A stretch of DNA of 64,000 nt from Dryococelus australis (Eukaryota > Arthropoda > Insecta > Phasmatodea > Phasmatidae). The stretch spans positions 275,766,900 through 275,830,899 of the forward strand of contig CM056993.1 in assembly GCA_029891345.1 (NCBI GenBank), in the 5' to 3' direction. This document shows, one piece after another, positions 1,850-58,503 of this stretch (position 1 is its first letter; the number at the start of each line of letters is the position of its first letter). Under the pieces are notes generated by a model. The model worked only from the letters and a program-made list of their open reading frames with translations, ran no database searches and was not told the origin of the DNA. A program made the position numbers and the translations under genes.

Positions 1850-2699
1850 TACTTAAAAAAGACAAGTAGCCTGTGGACGAGAAATAAATATATGTACGCA
1901 ACACTGGAAAATTCCAAGAGGGAATAGAATCAAAAACAGAACAGCAACTAATAACGAAAAATATGTGTACACATACACAACCCACAGATAACACATAGAA
2001 AACAACACCGGCTAGAAACCTGCTTGAAAAATGTACGGCAACGCTGACAAAATAAGTGGGAAAAGTATAGGACAACGCAACATATGCATTCTTGACTACA
2101 GCATACCTGACTTGCATTCTGTCGTGTCTGGTAAAACTACTGTGTTTGGGAGCGTTTTCTTTATTGTGTTGTCCTATTTTTTCCTACTTATTTTGTTTAT
2201 CTTTTTTCACAATTTCGATAGTTTCTGTTTTTTTTTATATTACCTATATTTTTCAGTTATACATATAGTTTTCATGTTCTTTTTTTTTTTTTTTTTTTTT
2301 AATTCTATTCCCTCCTGGAATTTTTCATGTTGTATACATATACTTATTTTCGCTTCCATAGGCTACTTGTCAAGTATTGTTTCGTGTTCAGTTCTGTTTT
2401 CCCACGAAAGACATCAGCATCACAATGGTGAATGTCCAAGAATCTCCATCTAGTCATCATTCTCCCCATTGCGCTATTCATTCAAAGAGAGCAATTTCTT
2501 TACAGCATTACCAACACACGCATTTACTCCCTTTATTAATTCATGTCAACCATAATTTAAATATTATAATCTATAGACTAAATACAAGTAAAATTCGATG
2601 TAACCAAAAGTAAGATACTGTTATGTTAACAGAAGTATAGAACGCTTGTGATAAACGTTATATTTATAAAACAACCGAACACATCATTCACGAGGTGAT

Positions 2700-3215
2700 T
2701 TTTCTAAGGTTTGATTCAAAAAGTAGAAGAATCCGTTTATAAACTATAATAGTGAATTTGCGATTTATTCACACATTTTGAACCAAACGTTTGAAATATC
2801 ACACCATGTGTGACTTTGGTCTTTCCCCTTAAATATACCATGTATCACAAGCGTTTTATACTCCTCCTAACATAAATTTGCCTTAATTTTGGTTAATTTG
2901 AACCTTTACTGATATTCTATCTATAAATAATGATATTTCATTTCTAATTTATATTTTTAAAAGTATATGGAAAACAGGTGTGTAGTAAATGCTTAGTAAG
3001 AAATAGTTTTCATGCAAATTGTTATTAAAGTAATCGCGCACGAATTGGGTGCGTTGTCCTTTTGGTATAGTTTTATAAACTTGGTTAAGCTTTGTTTGCA
3101 TGAGGCAGAGGAATATATCGGAAATAGGACCTAAGCAGGGCTTCAGGAAAGTCAGAAGTAACCGTAAATGGAATATTGCATAAGTTTCTGTGTTTACTGA
3201 TCGACCCTCGAGCAA
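2700..3215. repeat. Family B interspersed repeat, copy 1
   Basis: This shares long words with copies at 6850-7300 and 49310-49715. Examples are ATCACAAGCGTTTTA near the start, TTGGTTAAGCTTTG and GCATGAGGC in the middle, and GCAGGGCTTC with GGAAGTAAC at the end. The end is vaguely like the TA-target MITE family A (shared GCAGGGCTT), so it may be a diverged relative. No coding potential is seen. The exact boundaries are uncertain. Confidence 0.6.
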
Positions 3216-6200
3216 TAATTAAAGTGCTTGTCATTTGAGTAAAGCTTGTAACTAGGAGAGTGCAAAACACGTGTTTCCCATTAAGCGCATCCACCCCGAG
3301 CAACAAAACCGCAGCCAGTATACTACGGCATCTTTAAATGATTGGCTACAGGCGAATGGTGGAACAGGCGGGTGTCGCGACTAACGCCTGCGGACGCAAC
3401 CATTAGCCATCCCGTGATTGTTATATTAGCGTCGCCGCGTTGATGCCGGCAGCGCGGCACGGGCATTCCGCCTACAGTCATCAACAGAAGCTCACTGTGA
3501 TTATCAGAGAGGTGACAGGCCCGTCCATCTAATGGATTACAGAGTTAATTGTTTAAATATCGTGCATATGACACGCTTGGAAATGTGTAAAAGTTTAATA
3601 ATAATATTACGTGTCACTGGCTCGCGCCCCTGACGTTGGCTTCGTAACCCACGCGAGCGAAGGAGTTATATGATAGCGGCGGCAGTGTGAGCGATGGTGG
3701 CCACGTTTCAGTTAAAGAGAGCGAGCCGACACGACAATCTCTTTAGCGGCGCATTCTGCTGATCCTGGTTGTATCGATTTCTGCGTTTATCTGAATATAA
3801 TGCTCTGGATTAATGACCTCGTTTTCTCAACGTGACTCGGGGTGTACTGAACCTTCCAAATGATAAGGCCAACACTATAAATATTCCGACAGGCCTTCGA
3901 GCCAGGAGTTGAGTTGAGTGGCGTTTAGAGTTGATGAGTGAATGAGTGGCTGAGTTCCGAGCGATAGAAGACGAGCAGCGGGAGAAGTGACCAGCGGAAT
4001 GAAAGTCTGGGGCTGCGAGTATCAAGCAGTGAAGGGTGCGACTGGCAGGCTGGACTATTGGACTAGGTGCGTGAGTGAAATACAATGTAAATGATGAACA
4101 CGTGTTATCAGTATAGGTTAATCTACTGGAACTAAAAAAGAAACTTTACGAGGACGTAAATTAGAGTTGAAATTGACATTCAATATTGCGCTCAGTGTTA
4201 AATAAAATTAGTAAAAGTGGAGACAGATGATTTAATGCTGTAAATAATAGCGGAGAGAATAAATTGGAAAACAAATTTAGTTTATTTTATTTATTTTTTA
4301 CTAAGACCTCCATCCCTCACGAATTCAAATAGGCCCCTTCAGTGTCAGCATCTAACAATAATTACTTGAGTAAAGTCATCTGTTTTATCTATCCTTAGTT
4401 TACTTTACATTCTAGTCTAATTACGCACCACTGGTTCCCGGTTAGTTAAGTAATTTTGTAAAAAGAAGAATCTTTAACATTTTGCTAATAATCGTAAGTC
4501 AAATAATGTTAATACTCACTACTTAAGAGTAATGTTGCCAGCCATTAAAGACATAACACCGTGTTAAAAGAATAATATTTTATACTGTGGACACTGAAGA
4601 TGTTTTAACATTTGATTTTAAAATATTGGATTTAGAATTAACGTTAAGAGTTATATACTGGATGTTTCTTAAATACGTAGACAAACTCCGCCCACATATT
4701 TCTGCCACAAAATGACGCGAAATGATATACAACATACAATGTAAAGTATGTCCCAAACGCGGCACACCCCCTTGAAGTTGGAGCCGACAGACCACGCAAT
4801 TGCACAGTCTACAAAAAGTATTTACAGTCAAACCGGTAACCTCTGGATAACGTGGCAACTTACAGATATCTACTATCCGTGTAACGTCTGTTAGCATCAG
4901 CGAAATATGTCGTGACAATAGTAGGGGTTGCAGCCCTGATTTTGCAGAACATTGTGTGTCACCGACAGTTGATCACTTTTGGAGGGGCGGATTATGAAGT
5001 AACACGTTGAAATAAACTAAAAAAAAAGGTCTGGTATATCGTTTCCCTAATCACAACCATTTCCGAAGAATAAATGCATACAGTTCACAACCACCAAATA
5101 CCTTGGCCGGGTATATAGGCAACATGCAAAACCCCTGCGAATATTGGATATCACGTAGCATACTGCACTAAGAAATGATCAAAAATTACTATGTCGGTGA
5201 ACTGAACACAGAATTAATAGTGTGAGCTAAGGGTCATTAAATTAATGCAGTTGACAGTTGTTTGACATTAAAATTGTATTTATTGATTTTGGAGAATTCT
5301 GCGCGAACACTAAAGTGATTAGGTAATATCTTCATTAAATAAATTAATCTAAAATTTGTTTCCCAGTGAACATTTATTCATCGTTCCTGGAGAGTTCTGC
5401 ATGAATACTGAAAATGAGTAGCCCCAAAATTTTTTGTGCTTAAACTCCTACATTGAATGTTGTCATGTGACGATAGAATTACATTTATTAATATACATTA
5501 TGCAGTCATAAATCTCTCTTTTTCTGAAAGACAATCATACCACTTCGTTTCCATTTTTAAGAAGGTATGTAATGGACAGGTGGAAAAGTGAAAAACGCTT
5601 GGCTGCAACTTGCTTAACGTTAAGTGAATGCTATTAAAAGAAAATCTAAAGCGTTTTTGGTTATCGGTTAGCATTATAGTTAAGAAATGAATTATTGAAT
5701 GTTTGTTATTGATGACTGACGCTTACCTGATTCAATTAGGTCTTTTTAAAGTGCACATGTACATGATGTTCTGGATTGAACTTCTGGTCAAAACACCGAT
5801 TGGAGTGAAATTGTTGAGGTACAATAAGCATGTGCAATGACTTCACGACAGTATCTATCACTAATCTTGCAGTTTAATTTAAACTAAACAACGAGGATTT
5901 CTCAGAAAATATAGCCTAACAGAGTCACAGTCTTCCTGTCAAATATAGGTATTCGGCTGGAGCAATTGCGCTCGTGTCAAATCATGGCATCGTTTGAGGA
6001 GTATTTTTGTAATTGTCGATACTTCAAATCCACCACTCCCAATATAAAAGTTAACACCAAAATTATTTTAATAGTGACTTCTAGATTTGACGCAAAAAAT
6101 GTTTAATTTGTCCTAGTTTTACATTAATTTTGTTCTGCACTAAACATCTATTCAGTAGCGTACCTGGTTACCTAGTCACTGCAGTGAGCGGTATCCTAAT

Positions 6201-6849: not shown

Positions 6850-7300
6850 AGGTTTCTTCACACTCTTTGAACCAAACCTTTGTAAATTAATCATCCCATA
6901 TAATACGTGTCCCTCCCCCCTCCCAAATTTACATTAAATAAAATGACATGTATTACAAGCGTTTTACATTTCCGTCAACATAAAACTAGTATTTTTAAAC
7001 ATAACTTTGAGTTATTTTATATTTAAATACTACAATAAATTATATATAGTTAATATGAATAAGAACAGCGAAAAAATAGCGTGTTCGTAATTCCTAGTAA
7101 TATATATTTCTCATGCAAAATGTTATTAAAGTGAGTGGGCAAGAATATTGTTCGTGGTCACTTCGGTGTGATTTTACAGAATTGGTTAAGCTTTGCTTGC
7201 ATGAGGCGGAGGAATATCCTGGAAGTATAACTTTTAGCAGGGCTTCGTAAATGTTGGAAGTAACAGTGAATGTACTACAGTGAATGCGTGGTAATGACAT
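6850..7300. repeat. Family B interspersed repeat, copy 2
   Basis: Same order of conserved words as copies 1 and 3: TCTTTGAACCAAACC near the start, ATTACAAGCGTTTTACAT, TTGGTTAAGCTTTGCTTG, GCATGAGGCGGAGGA, then GCAGGGCTTCG and GGAAGTAACAGTGAATG at the end. Non-coding. Confidence 0.65.
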
Positions 7301-8827
7301 CTTGAGCTACTCGCGTATACATGTAAGGTTAGCACGACGCTCGAGCAATTTTTTGACCCTACGTATTTTTTTAGGAATGAGACTATTTTGATGTGTGATA
7401 AAGAGAAAACATATTATGGGCTGGCTATAGAGAAAGCACACTCTAATTCTGAACTAGTGATAATTGAGTCAAATTAGTGAAAACTAGTGAAAATTGAGGT
7501 ACGGATAATCAGTGCCAGAATGGTTGAATTTCACTGATTTATTTGTAATTCATACTGAATGCCGAGAATTCCACTGCCGTAAGTCGCTTGTTGCCAGTTC
7601 ATTTGCTTGATTCGCCAGTTGGCCGTAGCTTTTCAACTGACTTTCAGGGAATATTATTTCACTGATCCTTATCACTGAATCGGGCTTAGAATGCACACAG
7701 TCTTCAAGGGAAAACTGATCTCAGGTAAGAAGCAAGTAAATTGAAAGACACATTGAGTTCTTTATTTACGCGAAATTCTGAATTTTGTACGGGAAGTAGG
7801 ACAAATTTACTCCCTTAAATTTTTCACACTTCTAAACTGCGATAAAATTACATGAAATGTGTCCGTTAATCATCCTAAATTTTCGTTCTGCAATGGTATT
7901 AAATTTAACTATTACGCACAAGATTCTAATAAAAACTTTTAAAAAAATACATTTTTACTTTTTTTAAGTGCATATTTACAAGTGATCTGTAAAATTTTGT
8001 TATCCGTAAATAGTGACTGCGATGTTTTCACATTTTTATTAAAGTAAGCAATATTATCTTCGTATAAACATTACATTCTCTGAGACAACATAATGGCGTA
8101 GTTTGTTGTATGGCTAGTCTACGCCGCTAACGATTCAGGACTCAAGTCCGTGAATGTATGCTTATTGGTATAGATATAGGCTAATGCTAGTCTGTGCTCT
8201 CTTACTCCCCTCATCTTAGAGGCGTTCAAAAGCCGTAATGAAATTTTATTTCCAGTTCATCCACCGTTAGATAATTATGATGAATGTTTTTCACAAATAT
8301 GAACTACGATTATGTTGCCCACAAAAACGCAGGTATTTTATCGAATGACAAAAATGCGTATGAATACGCGGGGCTTATTTTACAACCGCCAATAAGTCTG
8401 CTGTAAGAGCGTTCAAGAATCTAATTTCCGTCTACGTCTTAACATATTACATAATTTTTCGTTGTGATATCGAAAAGTAGTTAAAAATTGACGAAAGCAG
8501 AAAATTACTTCTTAAAAACAAATAAGAACTACAAACCATTTTTACTCTATATATTTATTTCGTGCAAATTTAAAAATTTAATTAAATTTATAGGTTAGGC
8601 CATTGCTCAAAATAATTATCCATGTCATGAGAGTCTCACGTAAATATTTTGTTGTAAATTCGTTGTGTAGTTTGCCCGTATTTAATTTTTACTTTATATT
8701 TTAATTCTGAAGTCAAAATAGTTAGAAGCCAAGTCTATGACACAGATGGACCAACAGTCGGTATTCAAATAAATTGCAACGTGCAACTTCTGTAACTTCA
8801 TAACTGAAACCAAACTTTGTACAAAAA
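7301..8827. other. AT-rich sequence, no feature identified
   Basis: I see no open frame with protein-like composition, no splice-flanked GC-rich island and no obvious repeat structure in this stretch. Confidence 0.5.
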
Positions 8828-39484: not shown

Positions 39485-42400
39485 CACAAAGCCAGAATAT
39501 TCCAAGAAGGAATCGAATCAAATAAAATAGGACAGCAAGCTAAATACGGAAACTAATATACTACACTATCTAACAAAAAGTAATTGGGTACCCATGAAGA
39601 TAGGTAATTAAGTACGTCATTTGACTTGTGTTTCACGGTCTTCGGCGTAGGACCGCTGGTGTTTGTCCATGGTAGCATGAATACAAAGGCCTATTATAAC
39701 AGTCTGGATAATGAAATTCTCCCAACATTATGGCGTTTTTTTCGGAATGGACCGGTGTTACTTCCAGGATGACAATGCCAGGTGCCATGTTTCAAGGGCT
39801 ACTATGCTGTGGTACACCGATAACAATGTTCGCCGATTGGACTGGCCCGCCCAGAGCCCCGACCTCAACCCTATAGAACATCTTTGGGACGAATTGGATC
39901 GCCGGGTGAGAGCTCGTCAGACGCGGCCAAAATCCATTGCTCAACTCATGGAATGGTTGCAAGAAGAATGGCGACGAATCCCCGTGGATCTCCTGCAAAC
40001 ACTCGTAGAGAGCATGCCAGACAGGGTGACTGCTGTTATAGCCGCAAGAAGTGGCCCTACGAGATTCGAAACGGGGTGACAACTACCGAGCAAACATTGT
40101 GGACAGGTGCAAAATTACTTTTTGGTAGATAGTGTGTATATGTATGTATACTAAAATACTATATACGACAACAGACGACACACCGAGTAAGACGCAGACT
40201 AGTTATCTACTTACACAAATAAAACAAACACAACGAAAAAACTCACACAAACACAGTAGTTACTCTGTCTGGTGATTCGCCTCCACTTCACTATTCATTC
40301 AAAGATCACATCGATGGAAAAACGTCGAATTGGCAGGAAAATGGGACCCAAACTCTTGTTCGTCCCAGGCCTCGAGAGAACTGTGAGTTGGGCAGTCTTA
40401 CGAATATACAGTCACTTGCTCTGCTGGCATGTTCGGATGGTCATTATAAGCAAGAAATTTCTAATACACTACAAATAGATTCGAATTCGTTCCCGAATTC
40501 GTGTCCCATGACCGTCAACTGAGAGACCTCTCCTCGAGGAACATCCAAAGGGTGTGGCGTACAACGATTTTAAGCAAATCATCAGCCCCTCTCTTCCTGG
40601 CGAAATGAGCGGGGGAAGGGGTGGAAAATGTTTGCATTCACCTTCAGGAGTACCTTACTACGCGCCATGGCAGATTCCCCCTGTTTCTGCTTCAGCTTGC
40701 TCTGTCTCTAGTGGCCTCGCTGCCGACAAGACCTACCTGCCTACCTACCTACCTACCTACTTACCTACCTACCTGTCTACCTCCCAACCTATCTATCTAC
40801 CTACCTGCCTGCCTGCCTACCTACCTGCCTACCTGCATGCATGCTTGCCTGCCTACCTACCGACCTACCTATCTGCCTACCTACCTGCCTACCTACCAAC
40901 CTATCTATCTACCTGCCTACGTACCTACCTGCCTGCCTACCTACCTACCTGCCTACCTACCTGTCTACCTCCCAACCTATCTACCTCCCAACCTATCTAC
41001 CTCCCAACCTACCTACATATCTACCTACCTATCTACCTGCCTGCCTGCCTGCCTACCTATCTACCTACCTGCCTGCCTACCTATCTACCTACCTGCCTGC
41101 CTGCCTACCTGCTTACCTACCTACCTACCAACCTACCTACCTGCCTGCCTGCCTAGCTACCTGCCTACCTGCCTACCTACCTGCCTGCCTACCTGCCTGC
41201 CTGCCTGCCTACCTACCTGCCTACCTACCTGCCTACCTACCTACCTACCTGCCTACCTACCTACCTACCTGCCTACCTACCTATCTACCTGCCTACCTAC
41301 CAATCATTTGCAGAATGGCAGTTATTTAATATACTGGTGGTCTGAGAGGAATAAAATGAAGAGCAGCATATAAAATACCAAGATGGTGAGGATTTCAAGG
41401 GAGAGGACTAAGAGCAGGGACATTTACAATGGAAGGGACAGGAAATAGAGATCTTGGATGGAAAAAGTAGGGAGAAAGAGTGGTTTGATGGGAAGGAGAG
41501 GTTTGGGAATACTGGGGAGGGCCCTACAGTGAGCAAATAGCAAGGAGAAGAAAAAGGCTTATGGAGCGATGGTACGGCCGATATTGAAAATTCTGCAGCG
41601 TAATGGGATGTGCAGGTGTAAGTGGGGGTGCAAGAACTGGAGAAGGTTCAAAGAAGGGCAACTAGATAGGCGAAGGGCAGGTGGAGAAGACGGGAAGGAT
41701 TGTGAGGATGTAGGAAATTTGGGACAATCAGCGATGGTGAAGGAAATGGGCTGGGGTTCTTTGAAGGGCAGTATAAGTGTGGAGAGGTTGATCACGTTAT
41801 ACGGGATGGTAAATGGAGAAGGAAGGTGGAGGAAGTTAGGCTGCTGGCTGTCTAAGAGGTTTTAGAGAAGAAGAGGAAACAACAGTGTAAGACACAGAGG
41901 GTATGGAGGGGAACATAGTCGGTTAGGCAATCCCTGCTTGTGACGTCGGTGAGACAGTGGAATTTATAGCAAGAGGAGATGGTAACAGTGAGCGGTGTTA
42001 GAAAGTTCAGCAAGTGTCTGCAAAGGAAGTGAGAGGAAGACGAAGATAAATTTTTCGTCGGGCACCCTCCCAAAAGCAAGGATAATAATAATAACATAAA
42101 TTATAAACCTCTTACAGCATGGCAAAGCACGTGAATACAACACGATGGCGCAGGGTCACCCAGATGTATTTGGGGGCCTGGGGCAAAACTATTTTTGGGT
42201 CTTCCTCTTTAACCCAACGCTACATACTTCGAATATTACTTAGCTACGATTGTTATTCTACAATACCGGCAGTGAACATGTTGCTTGAAAACAGGTTTAT
42301 CGTTTGCTGTCAAGCTAATAAACAACTACGTTTGATAAGAAAGATAGTCCCCTGCTCTTATTAAAATAATGTAAATAACTACCTATATCCCATAGAATAA

Positions 42401-46010: not shown

Positions 46011-46113
46011 TCATGATTTGTAAATTATAGTGTGTATACTTCTTGGAGGGATGGTCATCTTTATGGATCCAGCTTTCATATCTGTTATCACGGTCTCTAT
46101 GCCTTCGTTTTTC
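46011..46113 (-). CDS. Glucosylceramidase terminal coding exon (103 bp)
   Basis: The acceptor TTCTGTTTCAG ends at 46114. The first base completes the Arg codon split by the intron. The frame then reads KNEGIETVITDMKAGS and IKMTIPPRSIHTIIYKS, ending TGA. The SIHT near the C-terminus is the family's usual ending. A different frame across the same DNA is open but is not homologous. Confidence 0.92.
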
Positions 46114-49100: not shown

Positions 49101-52100
49101 TATACTAGTAGCACATTTAGGTAAGTTCACAAAAATGCGACGTTTTCAATTGATTCACGCACGAAACAAGTCACCAGACCCGTATCAAAGTGAATTTCAC
49201 GTCAGGCGAAAAGATACACAATGAGAATAGAATAAGATTCATAAGAGGCCTTTGAAAAGGGCCCAGTCAACCGCGAACATCGTATATTCGCTCGCGGTCT
49301 CTTGAAGTATAGGCAGTTCCCGCTATCTTCAGACTTTCTGAACCAAACCTATGAAAACTCTCCATGTTGGTAACACGTTTGGTTTTTCATAAATATGTAT
49401 CGCAAGCGTTTTATGCTTCTGTTGACATAAAAGTCTCTTATTGTTGGTTAGATTGAACTTTTGATAATATCTTAATTCTAAATTACAATATTTCATTTAT
49501 AGTTAATACTAATAAAAACAGAGGTAAAATATGAATGTAGGTAATGTTTAGTAAGAAATATCACTATACTGAGTGTGCATGAAAGCGTTACACTGTCTCT
49601 TTGGGGTGATTTTCTAGTCTTAGTTAAGGTTCGCTCGAATGAGGCGAAGGGATAGCTTGAAAGCCGAAATTAGTGGGACTTGTTAAAAGTTGGAAGTAAG
49701 CCAGAATGAACTATAGTTAAGCTTGGCTCACAACGATCCGTCACTTCAGTCCGTCAACCATCCGTCCATTTTTTCGTCCGTCAATTGAAAGCGACTCACA
49801 ACAATCCGTCGGGCCACGAAATGTTCAGCGTTACCACCCAACAACACGAACTTTCTCTCGCAGAGACAAATTATTTGAATTAATATAATATATATATTAT
49901 CTTTCCTTAACATTACTTATCAGCATTTCCACTGAAAATCAACAAGTCATCTTCAGTTCAATTCAATGGTGAAACGTAAAAATTAAACAACTTCACTGTC
50001 TTGTGTATTTAAAAATAAAAATATTCAGAGACAATAAACAAGTGACTGTTTTCCGACAGCCATGTTCAAGGAACAATATTACAAGGCGGTGGCCCATCCG
50101 TCCGTCGAAAGTTTAGGTTTGAGATATACTTGACGGATTGGCGGATAGAAAAAAGTAGCTCTGCGATTGGTTGACGATCACGTGACGGACGGACTGACGA
50201 GCGACTGACGGATGAAACGGATGGTTGTGAGTCCAGCTTAAGGAGATGTTTATTACACGCTTTTATTTAACTTGCCTTGTTAGTTTGTACGTTCGGGTGA
50301 AATCTTGCAAGTGAATTTTGACCCACTTGTAGGTATTCAATTGAGCTGAAACTTGGTATACATAGAGAACCCCTATGACAATGCGATAATATGGTGACAG
50401 CGACCTGTTGCTGCAGCCAGGATCGTCTTTTCACGAGGTTGTCTAGAATATGTTTTTTCTCCATTGAAAGGGCTCGTAGTGATATCAAGTGTAGTTGAGA
50501 AATCAGTGTCTAATGATTATATTTTGATTCATTAAAACTTAACAAATTGCCGAAACTAAAAGTGACAAATGAAATAACTGTGAAAAACTTTTAAAACCAA
50601 GCTTTGATTTATAAATACACTAAAAAGAGAAGAATTACTATAGTAGTTACACAATTTGTAAAACTTGTAAGATGTGGTCGAACAGCCGTAATAAACTTTA
50701 TTAAAAATTAATATGTTTTTAACAATTTATATTTAGTATATAAAAGGTTGGCGTAGTATAGAACGTATACCTCATTTGCGTAAGCGTAGTAAGCACGTAT
50801 CTTACGTAAGGCTCTTAACTATTGGCAATATAAAAACTATACCTCAGTTCCATAACCGTAGTAAGCACATATCTTGCGTACGGTTCTTGACTACTCATGC
50901 CAAGCTTTTATGTACTAAATATAAATTGATACAAACATATTAATTTCAAGTAAAGTTTACTACCGCTGTTCGACCACATCTTACAAGTTTTGCAAATTGT
51001 GTAACTGCTATAATTATATTTCTCGTTTTAGTGTATTTATAAATAAAAGTTTTGTTTTAAAATTTTTTTACAGTTATTTTTGTGAGCTAGTAGTTGTCAT
51101 GGCGACATGCAGTTGTAGCAGACGGACGGACGCACCTGTTCTGCAGTACGAGTACTGTGGCGTTGTCAGGGGTTAGGAACGCTACGTGCTCCAAGCCGAA
51201 GCTGCGCTGTGCGTGCATGCCTACACACCGTGACCCTGGAGGCACATAGCGGCTCAAATGAGCCAGTGAGTAGTACATGGGCTGCTTGTAGAACTCGTCA
51301 GCTGAGGCGTTCACTATCACAGGCGCATCGACGTTGTTTTGGACCCAGTTAGGTCCGCCAGTGACGTCCAGGGCAAGGTTCCAGTCTAACCACGCCGACA
51401 CGCCCCTGCTCACTACCTACAACATGTGTTCATGACTCTCGACACATCATCTCTTAACATCTTTCACGGGCCACTAAAAGTACACGTCCTGTAGCTAATA
51501 ATCTATCTTTATTTGCCCGGAATTCGTTACAATATGCATCCTTTCCACTATTAAGTCATAATATATTCATTTCATATAAAACAAATGTAAAGTTTTACAT
51601 ATTAGAGGCTTTTACTCTGGGGCTAAGTTGAGTGGGGCAGGCTATATGGAGTGTGGTAGGCTATATGGAAAGCGGCAGGCTATATGAGTGTGTTAGTCTA
51701 TATGGAGTGGAGCAGGCTATATGGAGTGTAGTGGGCTATATGGAGTGTGGTAGATTACATGGAATGGGGCAGATTATATGGAGTGTGATATCCTATATGG
51801 AGTGGGACAGACTGTATTGAGTGTGGTAGACTATATGGAGTGGGGCAGGCTATAGGGAGTGGGGAAGATTCTATGGAGTGTGGTAGACTATATCGAGTGG
51901 CGTAGGCTATATGGAGTGTGGTAGGCAATATGGAGTGTGGTAAGCAATATGGAGTGTGGTAGGCTAAATTGAGTGTTGTGTGCTGTATGGAATGAGGCAG
52001 GCTATAAGGACTGCGGTAGGCTATATGGAATGGGGTAAACTATATGGAGTGTGGTAGGCTATATGTACTAAGGCCGGCTATATAGAGTGTGGTAAGCTAT

Positions 52101-55100
52101 ATAAAGTGTGGTAGGCTATGTGGGGTGGGGCAGGCAATATGAAGTGAGGCAGACTATATGGAGTGATGTAGGCTATATGGAATGGGCAAGACTATATGGA
52201 TTATGGTAGGCTATATGGAGTGGGGTATGCTATATGGATTGTGGTAGGCTATATGGAGTGGGGTACGCTGTATGGATTGTGGAAGGCTATATGGAGTGTG
52301 GTATGCTATATGGAGTGGAGCAGGCTATATGGAGTGGGGCAGACTATATGGAGAGTGGTAGGCTATATGGAATGAAACAGACTATATAAAGTGTGGTAGG
52401 CTATACGAAGTGGGGTAGGCTATATGGAGTGCGGTAGGATATATGGAGTGGAGCAGATCTATATGGAGTATGGTAGGCAATAAGAAATGGGGTAAACTAT
52501 ATGGAGAGGGGCAAATTATATTGGTTGTGGTAGGCTAAAAGGAGTGTTGTAGTCTATATAGAGTGGGGAAGGATATAAAAATTGTGGTAGGCTATATAGA
52601 GTGGTGTAGGCTATATGGAGTGGGCACTCTATATGGATTGTGGTAGGCTATATGGAGTGGGCCACACTATATGGAGTGTGGTAGGCTGTATGGTGTGAGG
52701 TAGGCTGTTTATAGTGGGGAAGGCAATATGGAGTGTAGTAGGCTATATGGAGTGGGGTATGCTATATGGAGTGTGGTAGATTATAGGAAGTGTGTTAGGC
52801 TATACGGAGTGTGGTAGGCTATATGGAGTGTTTTAGGCCTTAATGGAATGGGGCAGGATGTAGGGACTGTGGCAGGCTATATGGAGTGTGGCAGACTATA
52901 TGGAGTGTTGTTGGCTATATAGTGCGGGGCAGGCAATATGGAGTGTTGTAGGTCATATGGAGTGGAGTAGGCTATATGAAGTGTGGTAGGCTATTTACAG
53001 TGTGTTAGGCTTAATGGAGTGTGGTAGGCTAGATGGAGTGTGGTAGACTACATGGAGTGTGGTAGGCTATATGGAGTTTGGCAGACTATATGGAGTAGGG
53101 TATCTATATGGAGTTGGGCAGATTATGTGGAGTGTGTTAGGCTATATGGTGTGGAGTAGGCTATATGTAATGGGGCTGATTATATTGAGTGGGTGGGGAA
53201 TATGGGTGTGATAGGCTATATGGAGTGTGGTAAACTGCATGTAGTGGAGTAAGCTATATGGAGTCTGGTATTCTATTTGGAGTGTGGTAAGCTATAAAGA
53301 GTGTGATGGGCTATAAGGAGTGGGTCAGACTATATGGGATGTGGCAAGTTATATGGAGTGTGTTATGTTATATTCTGTGTGGTAGGCTATATGGAGTGTG
53401 GTAAACTACATGTAGTGGAGTAGGCTATATGGAGTGTGGTATGCTATTTGGTGTGTGGTAAGCTATAAGGAGTGTGATGGGCTATAAGGAGTGGATCTGA
53501 CTATATGGAGTGTGGCAAGTTATATGGAATGTGGTAGGCTATATTGTGTGTGGTAGGCTATATGGAGTATGGAAGGCAATATAGAGAGGAGTAGGCTATA
53601 TGGAGTGGAGCCGGCTATATGGAGTGGGGCAGGCTATATGGAGGGTTGTAGGCTATATAGAATTACGAAGGGTATTTGGAGTGTGGTAGGCTATATTGAG
53701 TGTTGTATGCTATATGGGGAATGGTACGCTATATGGAGTGAATTGGGCTATATAGAGTGGGGTAGGCCATACGGAGTGGGGTATTCTGTATGGATTATTG
53801 TTGGTTATATAGAATTATGTAGGCTATATGTAGTACAGTAGGCTATATGGAGTGTGGTAGGCTCTATCGTGTGTGGTAGGCTAAATGGAGTGCAGTAGGC
53901 AATATGGAGTGTGGTAGTCTATATGGGGTGAGTTATACTATAATGGAGTGTGTTAAGGAATAAGGAGTGTGGTAAGCTATAAGGAGTGGTGTAGGCTATA
54001 TGGATTGTGGTATGCTATATGGAGTGTGGTAGGTTATATTGAATGGGATATACTCTATGGAATGGAGCAGGCTATATGGAGTGGGGGTTACTATATGGAG
54101 TGGGGATACTATATGGAATGTAGTATACTATATGGAGTGTGTTATGCTATATGGAGTGTGAGAGGCTATAAGGAGTGTGGTAGGCTGTAAGGAGTGTGGT
54201 AGTCTATATGGAGTGTGATAGGCTATATGGAGTGTGGTAGGCTATATGGAGCGGAGCAGACTGTATGGATTTTGATAGGTTATATGGAATGTTGCAGGCT
54301 ATAAGGAGTGTGGTAAGCTATAAGGAGTGTCGTATTCTATATGGAGTGTACTAGGCTATATGGATTGTGGTAGGCTATATGGATTGTGGTAGGCTATATG
54401 GAGTTAGGTAGGCTATATGGAGTGGTGTAGGCTATATAGAGTTGGGCAGACGATATGGAGTGTGATAAGCTATAAGGATTGCGCTAGCATATATAGAATG
54501 TGGTAGGGTATATGGAGTAGGCTTTTTGTAGTGTGGTTGTCTATATACAGTGTAGCAGGCTATATGGAGTGGGGCACACTATATGATTGTTGTAGGCTAT
54601 ATGGTGTGTGGTTGGCTATATGGAGTGTGTTAGGATATATGAAGTTTGGTAGCCTATATGGAGGGTGGTAGGCTATAAGGAGTGTGGTCTTCTTATGGAG
54701 TGCGGGAAGGCTATAAGTGTGATAATCTATATGGATTGTGGTATGGTATATGGAGTGTGGTAGGCTATATGGAGTTTGGTAGTCTATATGGTGTGTGGTA
54801 GGCTATATTTTGTGTAGAAGACTTATGGAGTGTGGCAGCTTATAAGGAGTTTGTTAGGCTATATGGAGTGTGATAGACTATATGGAGTGTGGTAGGCTAT
54901 ATAGATTGCGGTAGGCTATATGGAGTGTGGTGGGGTTATTTGGAGTGTTCTAGGATATATGGATTGTGGTAAGCTAAATGGTGTTGGGCAGACTATATGG
55001 TGTGGGGTAGGCTATATGGAGTGTTGTAGGCTAAATAGAATTGGAAAGGCTATATGGAGTGTGGTAGGCTATAAGGAGTGTGCCAGACTATATGGAGTTT

Positions 55101-58100
55101 GGTATGCTATATGGAATTTTGTAGGCTATATTTAATTTGGTAGGTTTATATTGAGTGTGGTAGGCTATAAGGAGTGTGGTAGGCTATATGGAGCGTGGTA
55201 GGATATATGGATTGTGGAAAGGCTATATGTAGTGTGGTAGGCTATGTGGATTGGGGCAGGCGATAAGGAGTGTGGTAGAATGTATGGATTGTGTTAAGGT
55301 GTAAGGAGTGTGGTAAGCTATAAGGAGTGGTGCAGGCTATATGGATTGAGGTATGCTATATGGAGTGTGGTAGGCTATATGGATTGCGGTAGGCTATATG
55401 GAGTGGAGCAGACTATATGGATTGTGGTAGGCTATATGGAGTGTGGTATGTTATACGGAATGTGGTAGGCTATATAGTATTGTTTCGCTATATGGTATGT
55501 TAGGCTAAAAGGAGTGTGTTAAACTTATGGAGTGTGGTTGGCTATAATGACTGTGGTAGGCTATATGGTGTGTGGTAGGCTATATGGTGTGTGGGTGGTT
55601 ATATTGAATGTGATAGACTACATGGAGTGGAGCAGGCTATATGAAGTGGGGATACTATAAGGAGTGGGGGATACTATATGGAATATAGTATGCTATATGG
55701 AGTGTGGTAAGCTATATGGATTGTGAGAGCTATATTGAGGGTGGTAGGCTATAGGGAGTGTGGTAATCTTTATTGAGTATTGTAGGCTATATGTATTGTG
55801 GTAGGCTCTATGGAGTGTGGTAGGCTATAAAGGAATGTGGTAGGCTAGATGGAGTGTGGTAGACTACATGGAGTGTGGCAAGCTATATGGAGTGTGTTAG
55901 TCAATGTGGAGTATGGTAGGCTATAATGAGTGTGGGTAGCTATATGGAGTAGAGTATGCTATGTGGAGTGAAATACGCTATATGGAGTGGAGTAGGCTAT
56001 ATGGATTGTGTTAGTCTGTTTGGAGTGTTGTATGCTATATGGATTGATTTAGGCTTAATGGATTTGGGAAGACTATATGGAGGGGGCAGGCTATATGGAA
56101 TGGGGCAGACTATATTGACTGTGGAAGGTTATAAGGAGTGTGGAAGGTTATATGGAGTGTGGTAGGCTATATGTAATGTGGTAGGATATATGGAATGTGA
56201 TAGGCTATATGGAGTGAAGAGTGCTATATGAAGTGGGGCAGACTGTATGGAGTAGGACAGGCTATATTTGCGAATTGTAGGCTATATAGAATTGGGTAGG
56301 CTGAATGGAGTGTGGTAAGCTATATGGAGTGTGGTAGGCAATATGGAGTGTGGTAAGCTATGTGGAGTGTGTTATGCTATATGGAATGTGGTAGGCTATA
56401 TGGAGTGGGGCAGACACCAAATGTATTGTGGTAGGCTGTATTGAGTGGGGTAGTCTATATGGAGTGGTGCAGGATATATGGTGTGGGGAATGTTATATGG
56501 AATGTGGTAGGCTATATGTAGTGTGGTAGGGTGTATGGGGTAGTGTAGTCTGTATGGTGTGGAGAAGTTTATATGGATTGCTGTTAGGAAATATTGTGTG
56601 AGGCAGGCCTTATGGAGGGGAGCAGGCTATATGTAGTCGAGTAGACTATTTGGATTTTTGTACGCTATATGGATTGTGTTAGGCTTTATGGAATTTTGTT
56701 AGGCTATATGGAATTTGGTAGGCTATGTGGAATTTGGTAGTCTTTATGGAGTGTGTTAGGCTATAAGGCCTGTGGTACGCTATAAGGAATGTGGTGCGAT
56801 ATATGGATTGAGGTAGGTTATATCGATTGTGGTAGGCTATATGGTGTGGGGCAGGCTAAATGGAGTGGAATAGGTTATATGGAGTGTGGTAGTCTATTTG
56901 GAGTGTTGTATGCTATATGGATTGTGGTAGGCTAAATGGAGTTTGGCAGACTATATGGAGTGGGGTAGGCTATATGGAGTGGTGCAAACTATATGGAGTG
57001 GGGCAGGCTATATGGATTGGGGCAAACTATATTGAGTGTGCAATGTTATATGGAGTGTGGAACTTTATGTGGAGTGTCGTAGGCTATATGAATCGGGGCT
57101 GGTTATAAGGTGTGTGGTAGGTTATATGGAGTGGGGCAGAGTATATGGAGTATGGTAGGCTATATGTATTGTGGTAGGCTATATGGAGTGGAGAGTGCTA
57201 TTTGAAGTGGGGCAGACTGTATGGAGTAGGACAGGCTATATTTGCGAATTGTATGCTATATAGAATTGGGTAGGGTATTTTGAGTGTGGTAGGCTATATT
57301 GAGTGTTGTAGGCTATATAGGTTGGGCAGACTATAATGAGTGGAGCAGACTAAATGAAATGAGATATGTTATTTGGAGTGGGGTAATGCTATATGGAGTG
57401 TTGTAGGCTATATAGGATTGTGTAGGCTTTATAGAATTGTGTAGGCTATATTCAGTGATGTATTATATATGGAGTGGAGTAGGCTATATGGAGTGGTGAT
57501 TTCTATATGAAGTGTGGTATGCTATATGGATTGCGGTAGGCTATATTGAGTGTGGTAGGCTATATGGAGTTTGGTACGCTATATGGAGTTGAGTAGGCTA
57601 TATGGAGTGTGGTATTCTATATGTAGTGTAGTAGGCTATATGGAGTGGAGTTGGCTCTATGGAGTGTGGTAGGCTATATGGAGTGTGGTAGGCTATATGG
57701 TGTTGGGCAGACACCAAATGTATTGTGGTAGGCTGTATGGAGTGTGGTATGATATATGGAGTGGTGCAGGATATATGGTTTGGGGAATGTTATATGGAAT
57801 GTGGTAAGCGCATATTTAGTGTTGTAGGCTGTATGGGGTGGTGCAGTCTGTATGGTTTGGAGAAGTTTATATGGATTGCGGTTAGGAAATATTGTGTGAG
57901 GCAGGCTATATGGAGGGGAGCAGGCTATATGTAGTGGAGTAGGCTATATGGATTTTGGTAGGCTATATGGATTGTGTTAGGCTATATGGTGTTTGGTAGG
58001 CTATATGGAATTTGGTAGGCTATATGGAATTTGGTAGGCTATATGGAGTGTGTTAGGCTATAAGGAGTGTGGAACGCTATATGGAATGGGGTTGGATATA

Positions 58101-58503
58101 TGGATTGAGGTATGTTATATCGAGTGTTGTAGGCTATATGGAGTGGGGCAGTCTGTAAGGAGTGTGGTAGGCTTTATGAATTGGTGCAGGTTGTAGGGAG
58201 TGTGGTAGGCTATATGGATTGTAGTAGGCTATATGGAGTGTCGTAGGCTATGTGGATCGGGGCAGGCTTTGAGGTGTGTGGTATGTTATATGGAGTGGGG
58301 CAGAGTATATGGACTAAGGTAGACTATATGGATTGTGGTAGGCTATATGGTGTGTGGTAGGCTATATGAAGTGAGGTAGGCTTTGTAGAGTGGAACAGGC
58401 AGTGTGTTGGAGTGTCGGCTCACCTGTATGATGTCGGAGGTGTAGTTCTCTCCTCTCTCCCAGGAACCAAGCTGCACTGCACGACCCGGCGATATGAATG
58501 GGC
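46011..58503 (-). CDS. Lysosomal glucosylceramidase (acid beta-glucosidase), 3' part of gene
   Basis: The enzyme, glycosyl hydrolase family 30, hydrolyses glucosylceramide to glucose and ceramide in the lysosome. Three minus-strand exons (58424-58503, 51136-51416, 46011-46113) encode the last ~150 residues. They read, in order, AVQLGSWERGENYTSDIIQ, then AWLDWNLALD, GGPNWVQNNVDAPVIV, FYKQPMYYSLAHLSRYVPPG, and finally MTIPPRSIHTIIYKS and TGA. These align in order with the C-terminal part of animal acid beta-glucosidases. The codon split at the second junction (AG plus G) is completed exactly. The catalytic acid and nucleophile Glu lie upstream and are not in the window. Introns are 7.0 and 5.0 kb and packed with repeats. 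It could be either of the paralogues that insects carry. Confidence 0.93.
46327..46575 (+). mobile_element. tRNA-derived SINE, copy 4
   Basis: GGAGCCACGGTGGCTGAGCG and GGGCCCAATTCCCGG (altered B box) form the head; GTGGGAATTGTGCCGGACAA and GCTGTTAAGAGCTGCCCAAA lie in the body. It lies in the last intron of the glucosylceramidase gene, antisense to it. Confidence 0.85.
46580..49305. other. AT-rich intron sequence, no feature identified
   Basis: Part of the 5.0-kb last intron of the glucosylceramidase gene. No exon-like island was seen, apart from a GC-richer patch at 47930-48070 that holds no convincing frame. Confidence 0.45.
49310..49715. repeat. Family B interspersed repeat, copy 3
   Basis: Carries TTTCTGAACCAAACC, TATCGCAAGCGTTTTATGCT, GAATGAGGCGAAGGGATA and GTTGGAAGTAAG in the same order as copies 1 and 2. 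A TTAA-flanked MITE starts right at its end. Confidence 0.65.
49717..50241. mobile_element. TTAA-flanked palindromic MITE
   Basis: TTAA (49717-49720) and TTAA (50238-50241) flank inverted ends GCTTGGCTCACAACGATCCG and, from the other side, GCTGGACTCACAACCATCCG. The word CCGTC and its extension ATCCGTC recur many times in both subterminal regions in inverted orientation, like clustered protein-binding sites. TTAA target duplication suggests mobilisation by a piggyBac-type transposase, but the ends themselves do not prove it. Confidence 0.7.
50560..51089. mobile_element. 530-bp foldback element next to a splice donor
   Basis: The arms of about 200 bp are near-perfect inverse copies. ATTTATAAATACACTAAAA, GTTACACAATTTG.AAAACTT and GTAAGATGTGGTCGAACAGC appear on the left and inverted on the right. 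The loop holds a diverged tandem duplication of about 75 bp (CGTAGTAAGCACGTATCTTA / CGTAGTAAGCACATATCTTG). The right edge is about 47 bp from the 5' splice site after 51136. Confidence 0.8.
51136..51416 (-). CDS. Glucosylceramidase exon (281 bp)
   Basis: The acceptor ATGTTGTAG lies at 51417 and the donor AACAG|GTGCGT at 51136/51135. It encodes 93 codons plus two bases, from VVSRGVSAWLDWNLALD to ATVLVLQN. The order WLDWNLAL, GGPNWV, FYKQPMYY, SRYVPPGS and VLVLQN follows the family closely. The exon is GC-rich against AT-rich flanks and free of stops or frameshifts. Confidence 0.95.
51620..58400 (+). repeat. 19-bp minisatellite filling a glucosylceramidase intron
   Basis: The consensus on the plus strand is GGAGTGTGGTAGGCTATAT, repeated for about 6.8 kb, or roughly 350 units. 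Common variants are GGGGCAG for GTGGTAG, TGGAATG, and GACTATA. Copies differ at one to four positions, and a few units are 18 or 20 bp long. Some variant blocks recur, such as CAGACACCAAATGTATTGTG at about 56412 and 57711, so segments larger than one unit have also been duplicated. Nineteen is not a multiple of three, and the plus strand spells few stops. The many Gly-Tyr-Met-Glu-type frames are therefore artefacts. Confidence 0.97.
58424..58503 (-). CDS. Glucosylceramidase exon, antepenultimate visible coding exon (80 bp)
   Basis: The acceptor is GTTGTAG at 58504 and the donor is ATACAG|GTGAGC at 58424/58423. It encodes PFISPGRAVQLGSWERGENY and then TSDIIQ, with two bases of a split codon at its start. 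GSWERGENY matches the GSWDRGMQY-type motif just after the nucleophile-bearing exon in the family. The minisatellite begins about 25 bp past the donor. Confidence 0.92.

Follow-up and report, generated by a model that had tools for sequence, protein, structure and literature searches.

A degenerate 19-bp minisatellite occupying most of an intron in a glucosylceramidase gene of the stick insect Dryococelus australis

How does an intron come to consist almost entirely of a single short tandem repeat, and how does its gene tolerate this? The question is raised by a 64,000-nucleotide stretch of the Dryococelus australis genome (assembly GCA_029891345.1, contig CM056993.1, positions 275,766,900 to 275,830,899; hereafter the window), in which a glucosylceramidase (GBA) gene on the minus strand contains a 7,007-bp intron filled with 19-bp units. 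An earlier note on this DNA, made from the letters alone, had described such an array and proposed that it spread until only the splice signals were left and that its length probably varies between individuals. We confirm that the intronic minisatellite is real, extreme and apparently private to its locus, a case of a known kind, unusually extreme and clean. The interpretation of the earlier note as a whole is partly supported. No report of this array was found in open-access papers on intronic or insect minisatellites, judged mostly by title and the start of the abstract.

The array and its host intron

The window contains no N, and among the 16 rows returned for it by Tandem Repeats Finder (TRF) one dominates: an array of period 19 at 51630-58382, with 355.7 copies, 72% matches and a score of 5410 compared with 603 for the runner-up. 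Wrap-around decomposition resolved 358 units of 19 bp spanning 51621-58392 (309 free of indels, 304 distinct), with a mean identity of 0.83 to the consensus GGAGTGTGGTAGGCTATAT and 14 exact copies. Thus, the array is a minisatellite in the usual sense, i.e., head-to-tail units of about 10-100 bp extending over hundreds of bp or more. It covers 6,772 of the 7,007 intron bases, which agrees with the approximately 6.8 kb given earlier; 235 non-array bases remain, in keeping with an expansion up to, and not into, the splice signals. Its edges lie 31 bp from the donor (41 bp by TRF) and 204 bp from the acceptor (213 bp by TRF), close to the earlier estimates of about 25 and 200 bp. On the plus strand the array has 36% G and 7% C (window: 22% and 20%); on the transcript strand (minus) it is, consequently, C-rich and G-poor. 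In window coordinates, the features are the following, with their basis in brackets:

51621..58392, plus strand: minisatellite of 358 degenerate 19-bp units, rich in G on this strand (TRF, decomposition, composition)
51417..58423, minus strand: intron, phase 0, GT-AG, 7,007 bp, by alignment equivalent in position and phase to human GBA1 intron 8 (exon joins, human alignment)
58424..58503, minus strand: upstream exon, 80 bp, PFISPGRAVQLGSWERGENYTSDIIQ, donor ATACAG/GTGAGC (in-frame join, human alignment)
51136..51416, minus strand: downstream exon, 281 bp, starting VVSRGVSAWLDWNLALD, acceptor TTGTAG/GTAGTG (in-frame join, human alignment)
46011..46113, minus strand: last coding exon including the stop codon (in-frame join, human alignment)
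51417..51620, minus strand: acceptor-side non-array remainder, 204 bp (own-only match in the genome search with 51417-51629)
58393..58423, minus strand: donor-side non-array remainder, 31 bp (decomposition)
56307..58260, plus strand: later segmental duplication within the array (unit block comparison)
53204..53488, plus strand: local duplication within the array, 9-unit offset (unit block comparison)

A single open frame runs through 58424-58503, 51136-51416 and 46011-46113 up to the stop codon at the end of the last exon, with AG/GT borders. The translated downstream exon aligns with residues 375-461 of human glucosylceramidase (E-value 1e-26). A joined protein, put together from the three exons of the window plus two further upstream ones of L041, matches human GBA residues 218-495 (E-value 3.5e-64), the join between the two most upstream exons being a guess. 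The NEP and TEAC motifs of this protein align to human NEP and SEAC, and we take their glutamates to be the catalytic ones of glucosylceramidase. With catalytic and C-terminal homology and both of these glutamates present, the gene belongs to the GBA1 type, and the gene identity and intron limits proposed earlier hold. At the intron, the exon boundary separates two residues whose human counterparts in the alignment are 369 and 370. Published accounts use the name c.1225-34 for a variant in human GBA1 intron 8, from which it follows that human exon 9 starts at codon 409; with a leader of 39 residues, this codon corresponds to mature residue 370. This places the array-bearing intron, as judged from the protein alignment, at the same position and in the same phase as human GBA1 intron 8.

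A coding role of the array was considered and rejected, as each of the six frames holds 102-128 stops and the longest open stretch has 94 codons. Likewise, higher-order periodicity of 38 bp or more was rejected, because the way in which ungapped autocorrelation falls off at longer lags is put down to register shifts; unit-aligned identity is flat at small lags except lag 1, and the top value (0.752 at a lag of 312 units) comes from few pairs. Elsewhere in the window, an open frame at 39681-40079 (plus strand), which we take to resemble the C-terminal part of a Tc1/mariner-type transposase, and an (ACCT)n microsatellite at 40731-41301 (142.8 copies, TRF) were observed.

Occurrence in the genome and among GBA paralogues

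To what extent is the array private to this intron? The assembly searched comprises 3,415,067,245 bases (3.4 Gb), and the DNA search skips very common words. With a 28-mer and up to two mismatches, all 40 matches fell in the array and the reversed-pattern control gave none, which puts the array far beyond chance. A genome-wide search with the 19-mer, which the earlier note had proposed as a check on privacy, placed 53 of 55 matches (up to one mismatch) in the array and two in a dispersed repeat. All ten genome matches of a 1.2-kb array piece lay within the array (only one first-look candidate), and the acceptor-side flank 51417-51629 matched its own locus only. The array, on contig C1, was located solely in this intron by these searches; it is, therefore, a single-locus minisatellite, and long arrays at several loci, as in a satellite DNA family, were not detected.

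The host gene itself is not single. The PF02055 profile finds 104 places in the genome, at least 24 of which contain the exon downstream of the intron, own locus included (counted as hits starting at profile positions 280-293 and ending at 345-348). Such GBA exon places were seen on C1, C2, C3, C4, C6, C7, C8, C13 and C15, often clustered. From 20 of the other 23 places, 10-kb stretches were fetched (left out: one on C1, two on C15). Neither TRF rows over 150 bp nor the array-unit profile (best E-value only 0.32) revealed the 19-bp array in any of these 20 stretches. In 13 of them the homologous intron is wholly covered, with lengths of 484-6472 bp and ends, placed by hand from tblastn ends, of the GT-AG (10) or GC-AG type (3). 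The other seven introns were not measured, since six have no upstream-exon match within 10 kb at E < 1 and one (L036) has a partial match. The rarity of such arrays is judged from these 200 kb of paralogue loci, where the longest other array measures 964 bp, from the window and from one published average.

Several observations concern the family as such. GCAAGT donors occur in L023, L024 and L037, i.e., in three of the 13 delimited introns, and the GC-AG share seems high. In L033 the homologous exon is divided between two frames, and in L034 it reads through a stop; some family members, such as these two, may be pseudogenes. L027 contains four young-looking minisatellites (93-96% matches) at 258-1221, 2450-3071, 5379-5842 and 7070-7883. 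According to published accounts, midgut transcripts of other stick insects include glucosylceramidase, which makes a digestive expansion of the family plausible. PMC5940134, in its accessible part, reports pectinase expansions and does not mention GH30 or glucocerebrosidase. In open-access papers, no account of a stick-insect GBA/GH30 expansion bearing on this array was found.

Unit divergence, splice signals and a probable history

In hypervariable minisatellites, neighbouring units or blocks are nearly identical through ongoing turnover. The present array differs from this: mean identity is 0.727 for all pairs of units and similar at all distances (shuffled order: 0.727 ± 0.003), neighbours reach 0.736, and the best block has 0.913 over 20 units. 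The units look like near-independent, star-like descendants of one sequence, unlike a ladder of fresh duplications. Simulations in which 358 units decayed until the observed divergence was reached (three runs each, and rough) gave identities of 0.737-0.741 for neighbouring and 0.741-0.742 for distant units in the absence of turnover. With 0.1 single-unit events per mutation, values of 0.769-0.774 and 0.740-0.742 were obtained, which exceeds what is observed, while 0.02 events per mutation reproduced the difference between neighbouring and distant units. Thus, about two single-unit events per 100 substitutions fit and ten are too many. Together with the star-like divergence, this goes against the length variation between individuals that the earlier note had considered probable. 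We regard the case for such present variation as weakened by this, and no more than weakened, as the human ABCA7 variable number tandem repeat (VNTR) joins substituted units with great length variation. Divergence from the consensus averages 0.143 (positions 7 and 10 excluded), or approximately 0.16 after Jukes-Cantor correction. Insect mutation rates are near 3e-9 per site per generation, from which an age of roughly 50 million generations follows, with a wide error.

How could splicing tolerate several hundred such units? On the transcript strand the array contains no GTAAG, no GTGAG and one GTATG (donor-like counts cover five strings only). With an acceptor matrix built from 20 sites, the 303 AGs of the array have a median score of −13.4, compared with −5.5 for 947 AGs of three paralogue introns, and five of the 303 score above the true acceptor, compared with 12% in the paralogue-intron background. 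The RNA of one 285-nt array stretch folds no better than shuffles (z +0.94). We read the array as splice-inert filler, which is a prediction from sequence. As a separate observation, the stretch 51417-51620 holds an AG, 72 nt before the acceptor, with a higher score (8.3; acceptor: 1.26), and use of this AG would add an in-frame TAG. Action through R-loops or quadruplexes was considered and set aside: the G-rich strand is the template, the RNA is C-rich, and the array contains no G3 quadruplex motif, though 93 two-tetrad motifs (G2 x4) lie on the plus strand; a G4Hunter score of 1.2 is reached by 171 of 6,747 25-nt windows.

Overall, we consider it probable that the array is an early-amplified, decayed and inert passenger minisatellite in the intron of one GBA paralogue. 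By amplification, for the most part early on, a short 19-bp sequence within a probably small intron would have given rise to several hundred tandem copies, and growth would have halted where the splice signals would have been reached. Afterwards, the array would have changed mainly by point-substitution decay and a handful of later block duplications (approximately 170 bp to 1.3 kb). It would have no function of its own, being transcribed as C-rich, G-poor filler and removed with the intron, and may be tolerated because, in this orientation, sites resembling donors or acceptors are almost absent and the RNA does not fold in an unusual way.

Several observations weigh against this history, in the first place against a single clean burst. 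The excess identity of neighbouring units, although small, amounts to about three standard deviations. The mean identity of each unit to its nearest relative is 0.924, above the 0.912-0.914 of the simulation without turnover and within the 0.914-0.926 obtained when a few block events, of 10 units on average, were simulated at 0.002-0.01 per mutation, so some turnover took place. Indeed, block duplications are visible. The best one relates units from 56383 onward to those from 57680 onward at an offset of 68 units (approximately 1,297 bp), its identity over 20 units contrasting with at most 0.828 in 20 shuffles. Another, at an offset of 9 units (approximately 171 bp), relates 53204-53222 to 53374-53393 (0.91-0.94 over 5-8 units). 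Compared with the 68-unit one, the block repeats at offsets of 9, 51, 71 and 83 units fall short in length or in strength, and comparisons of 3 units gave nothing above shuffles. Further, there are two linked sub-types of unit, 195 with T,T and 51 with G,C at positions 7 and 10. The substitution pattern is another difficulty. Consensus-polarised differences within the recent block duplication (56307-58260) comprise 28 G>T and 11 G>A on the plus strand, whereas in a control the ratio of transitions over matching transversions is 1.69 (binomial p 1.6e-5 for the G>T excess). This control used dispersed repeats of the same loci with CpG-like sites excluded, in 203 overlapping alignments that are mostly 70-80% identical. 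Changes from the consensus over the whole array number 264 G>T and 254 G>A. Plain neutral decay does not predict such an excess, part of which could stem from effects of position, errors of register or a lack of independence. With regard to tolerance, the intron's own acceptor is weak (third lowest of 21 in the family), so that clean splicing cannot be assumed, and the G-rich DNA strand in one stretch shows somewhat stronger folding than its shuffles (z −1.82, 8/200). The little similarity of neighbours, the block duplications and the two sub-types taken together lead to early amplification followed mostly by decay, and a history of this kind, with occasional block events, fits the data.

Alternatives and comparison with known systems

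An actively unstable VNTR, whose length would differ from one individual to the next owing to frequent change through slippage or unequal exchange, would be favoured by the fact that block duplication happened more than once, and the human ABCA7 VNTR is, according to published accounts, highly length-variable despite many unit substitutions. Since neighbouring units share little similarity, even the best 20-unit block is still 9% different and, in simulation, frequent turnover of single units fails to reproduce the data, we regard this as unlikely. That the array regulates splicing, elongation or chromatin of this GBA copy is very unlikely in our judgement. Intronic repeats can act, as accounts of TERT VNTR6-1 (splicing) and of the satellite introns of kl-3 and kl-5 illustrate, in humans, splicing at the homologous intron is reported to matter for disease, and the two-tetrad quadruplex motifs point the same way. 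However, the units show no contiguous conserved core, with G positions along the unit changing most and A and T positions least, the G3 motif is absent and a G4Hunter score of 1.2 is reached by the above 171 windows, and none of the fetched paralogue stretches has the array. Finally, an assembly product, i.e., collapse, expansion or misjoin, is barely conceivable. The authors of the assembly did anticipate collapse of long, highly similar repeats (PMC10268593). Yet these units average only 73% alike and are mostly distinct, both array edges lie within one gene with the frame open across the junction, and the PacBio continuous long reads, from a male sample, have an N50 of 35 kb (scaffold N50 262,277,254 bp; PMC10268593), long enough to span 6.8 kb. 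For such a degenerate array, collapse or misjoin appears unlikely from its sequence.

The origin of the unit is a question of its own, and one answer is compatible with the passenger history: an intronic copy of an abundant dispersed repeat may have given a 19-bp piece that was then amplified. Both 19-mer matches outside the array fall in one dispersed family and are 67% alike over 444 bp. The family has 2,132 first-look places, 40 of which were scored; a majority sequence built from L022 and 12 of those 40 (13 copies) contains GTACTGTGGTAGGCTATAT, which agrees with the unit at 17 of 19 positions. The maximum in 3,000 random genomic stretches was 16, which is not a fair p-value because the family was picked by searching for the best match. 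Moreover, AAGTTG precedes both the first array unit and the repeat's match (24-bp match, E-value 0.006, small search). On the other hand, the reversed-pattern control of the 19-mer search likewise had two matches. The family profile has no match in the array flanks at E-values up to 10, so the rest of a dispersed element was not detected there; the best E-values were 1.2 in the masked window and 0.046 in the array. The family is also so common (9 of 20 paralogue loci) that chance resemblance is plausible. Hence, we hold this origin to be possible, though doubtful. In L022 (182-2590) and L023 (5230-6532, both oriented), copies of the family overlap, seem to be arranged in tandem and measure a few hundred bp each; of these two loci, only L023 has the dispersed repeat inside the homologous intron, the L022 copies lying upstream of its exon A. 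In the most detailed account, a 19-bp piece of this abundant stick-insect repeat would have grown, within a single member of a GBA family of at least 24, into an array of hundreds of units that stopped at the splice signals, followed by tens of millions of generations of decay rich in G-to-T changes on the G-rich strand, with survival through a splice-silent orientation; as a whole we judge it fairly unlikely.

Published descriptions of other repeats, as far as available, place the array among known kinds. The human ABCA7 VNTR (25-bp unit with frequent substitutions, 300 to over 10,000 bases, up to approximately 400 units) is likewise a gene-associated minisatellite with many unit substitutions and a unit that is C-rich on one strand; it differs in being length-polymorphic and disease-linked, whereas the stick-insect array is old-looking and known here from one assembly. 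TERT VNTR6-1 in human intron 6 (38-bp unit, 24-66.5 units) is likewise a minisatellite within an intron and has one strand with G-rich potential, but it is polymorphic, forms a G-quadruplex and has a shown effect on splicing; our array has about 358 units without a G3 motif and is known from sequence alone. The gigantic satellite-filled introns of Drosophila kl-3 and kl-5, which need special factors, resemble it as introns made almost wholly of tandem repeat, yet those are megabases of simple satellites in Y-loop genes, compared with a private 6.8 kb on C1. Within stick insects, 257,457 minisatellite loci covering 44.4 Mb have been reported for one genome (PMC5940134), a mean of approximately 172 bp per locus, and the array is about 39 times longer. 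The mean intron length per transcript in D. australis is 1,424 bp (PMC10268593). Human GBA1 intron 8 shares position and phase in the homologous gene; there, a branchpoint variant causes intron retention, and the available accounts of that intron mention no array.

Since the homologous human intron bears on splicing-related GBA1 disease risk, the comparison is easy to explain, although a functional effect of the array is not claimed here. If the detailed account of its origin and decay were true, the paralogues sharing the intron position without the array would serve as natural controls. An intron made up to 97% of a single minisatellite, in a family with at least 24 such places, would thus offer a matched set in which repeat load can be related to splicing and to the strand orientation that is tolerated.

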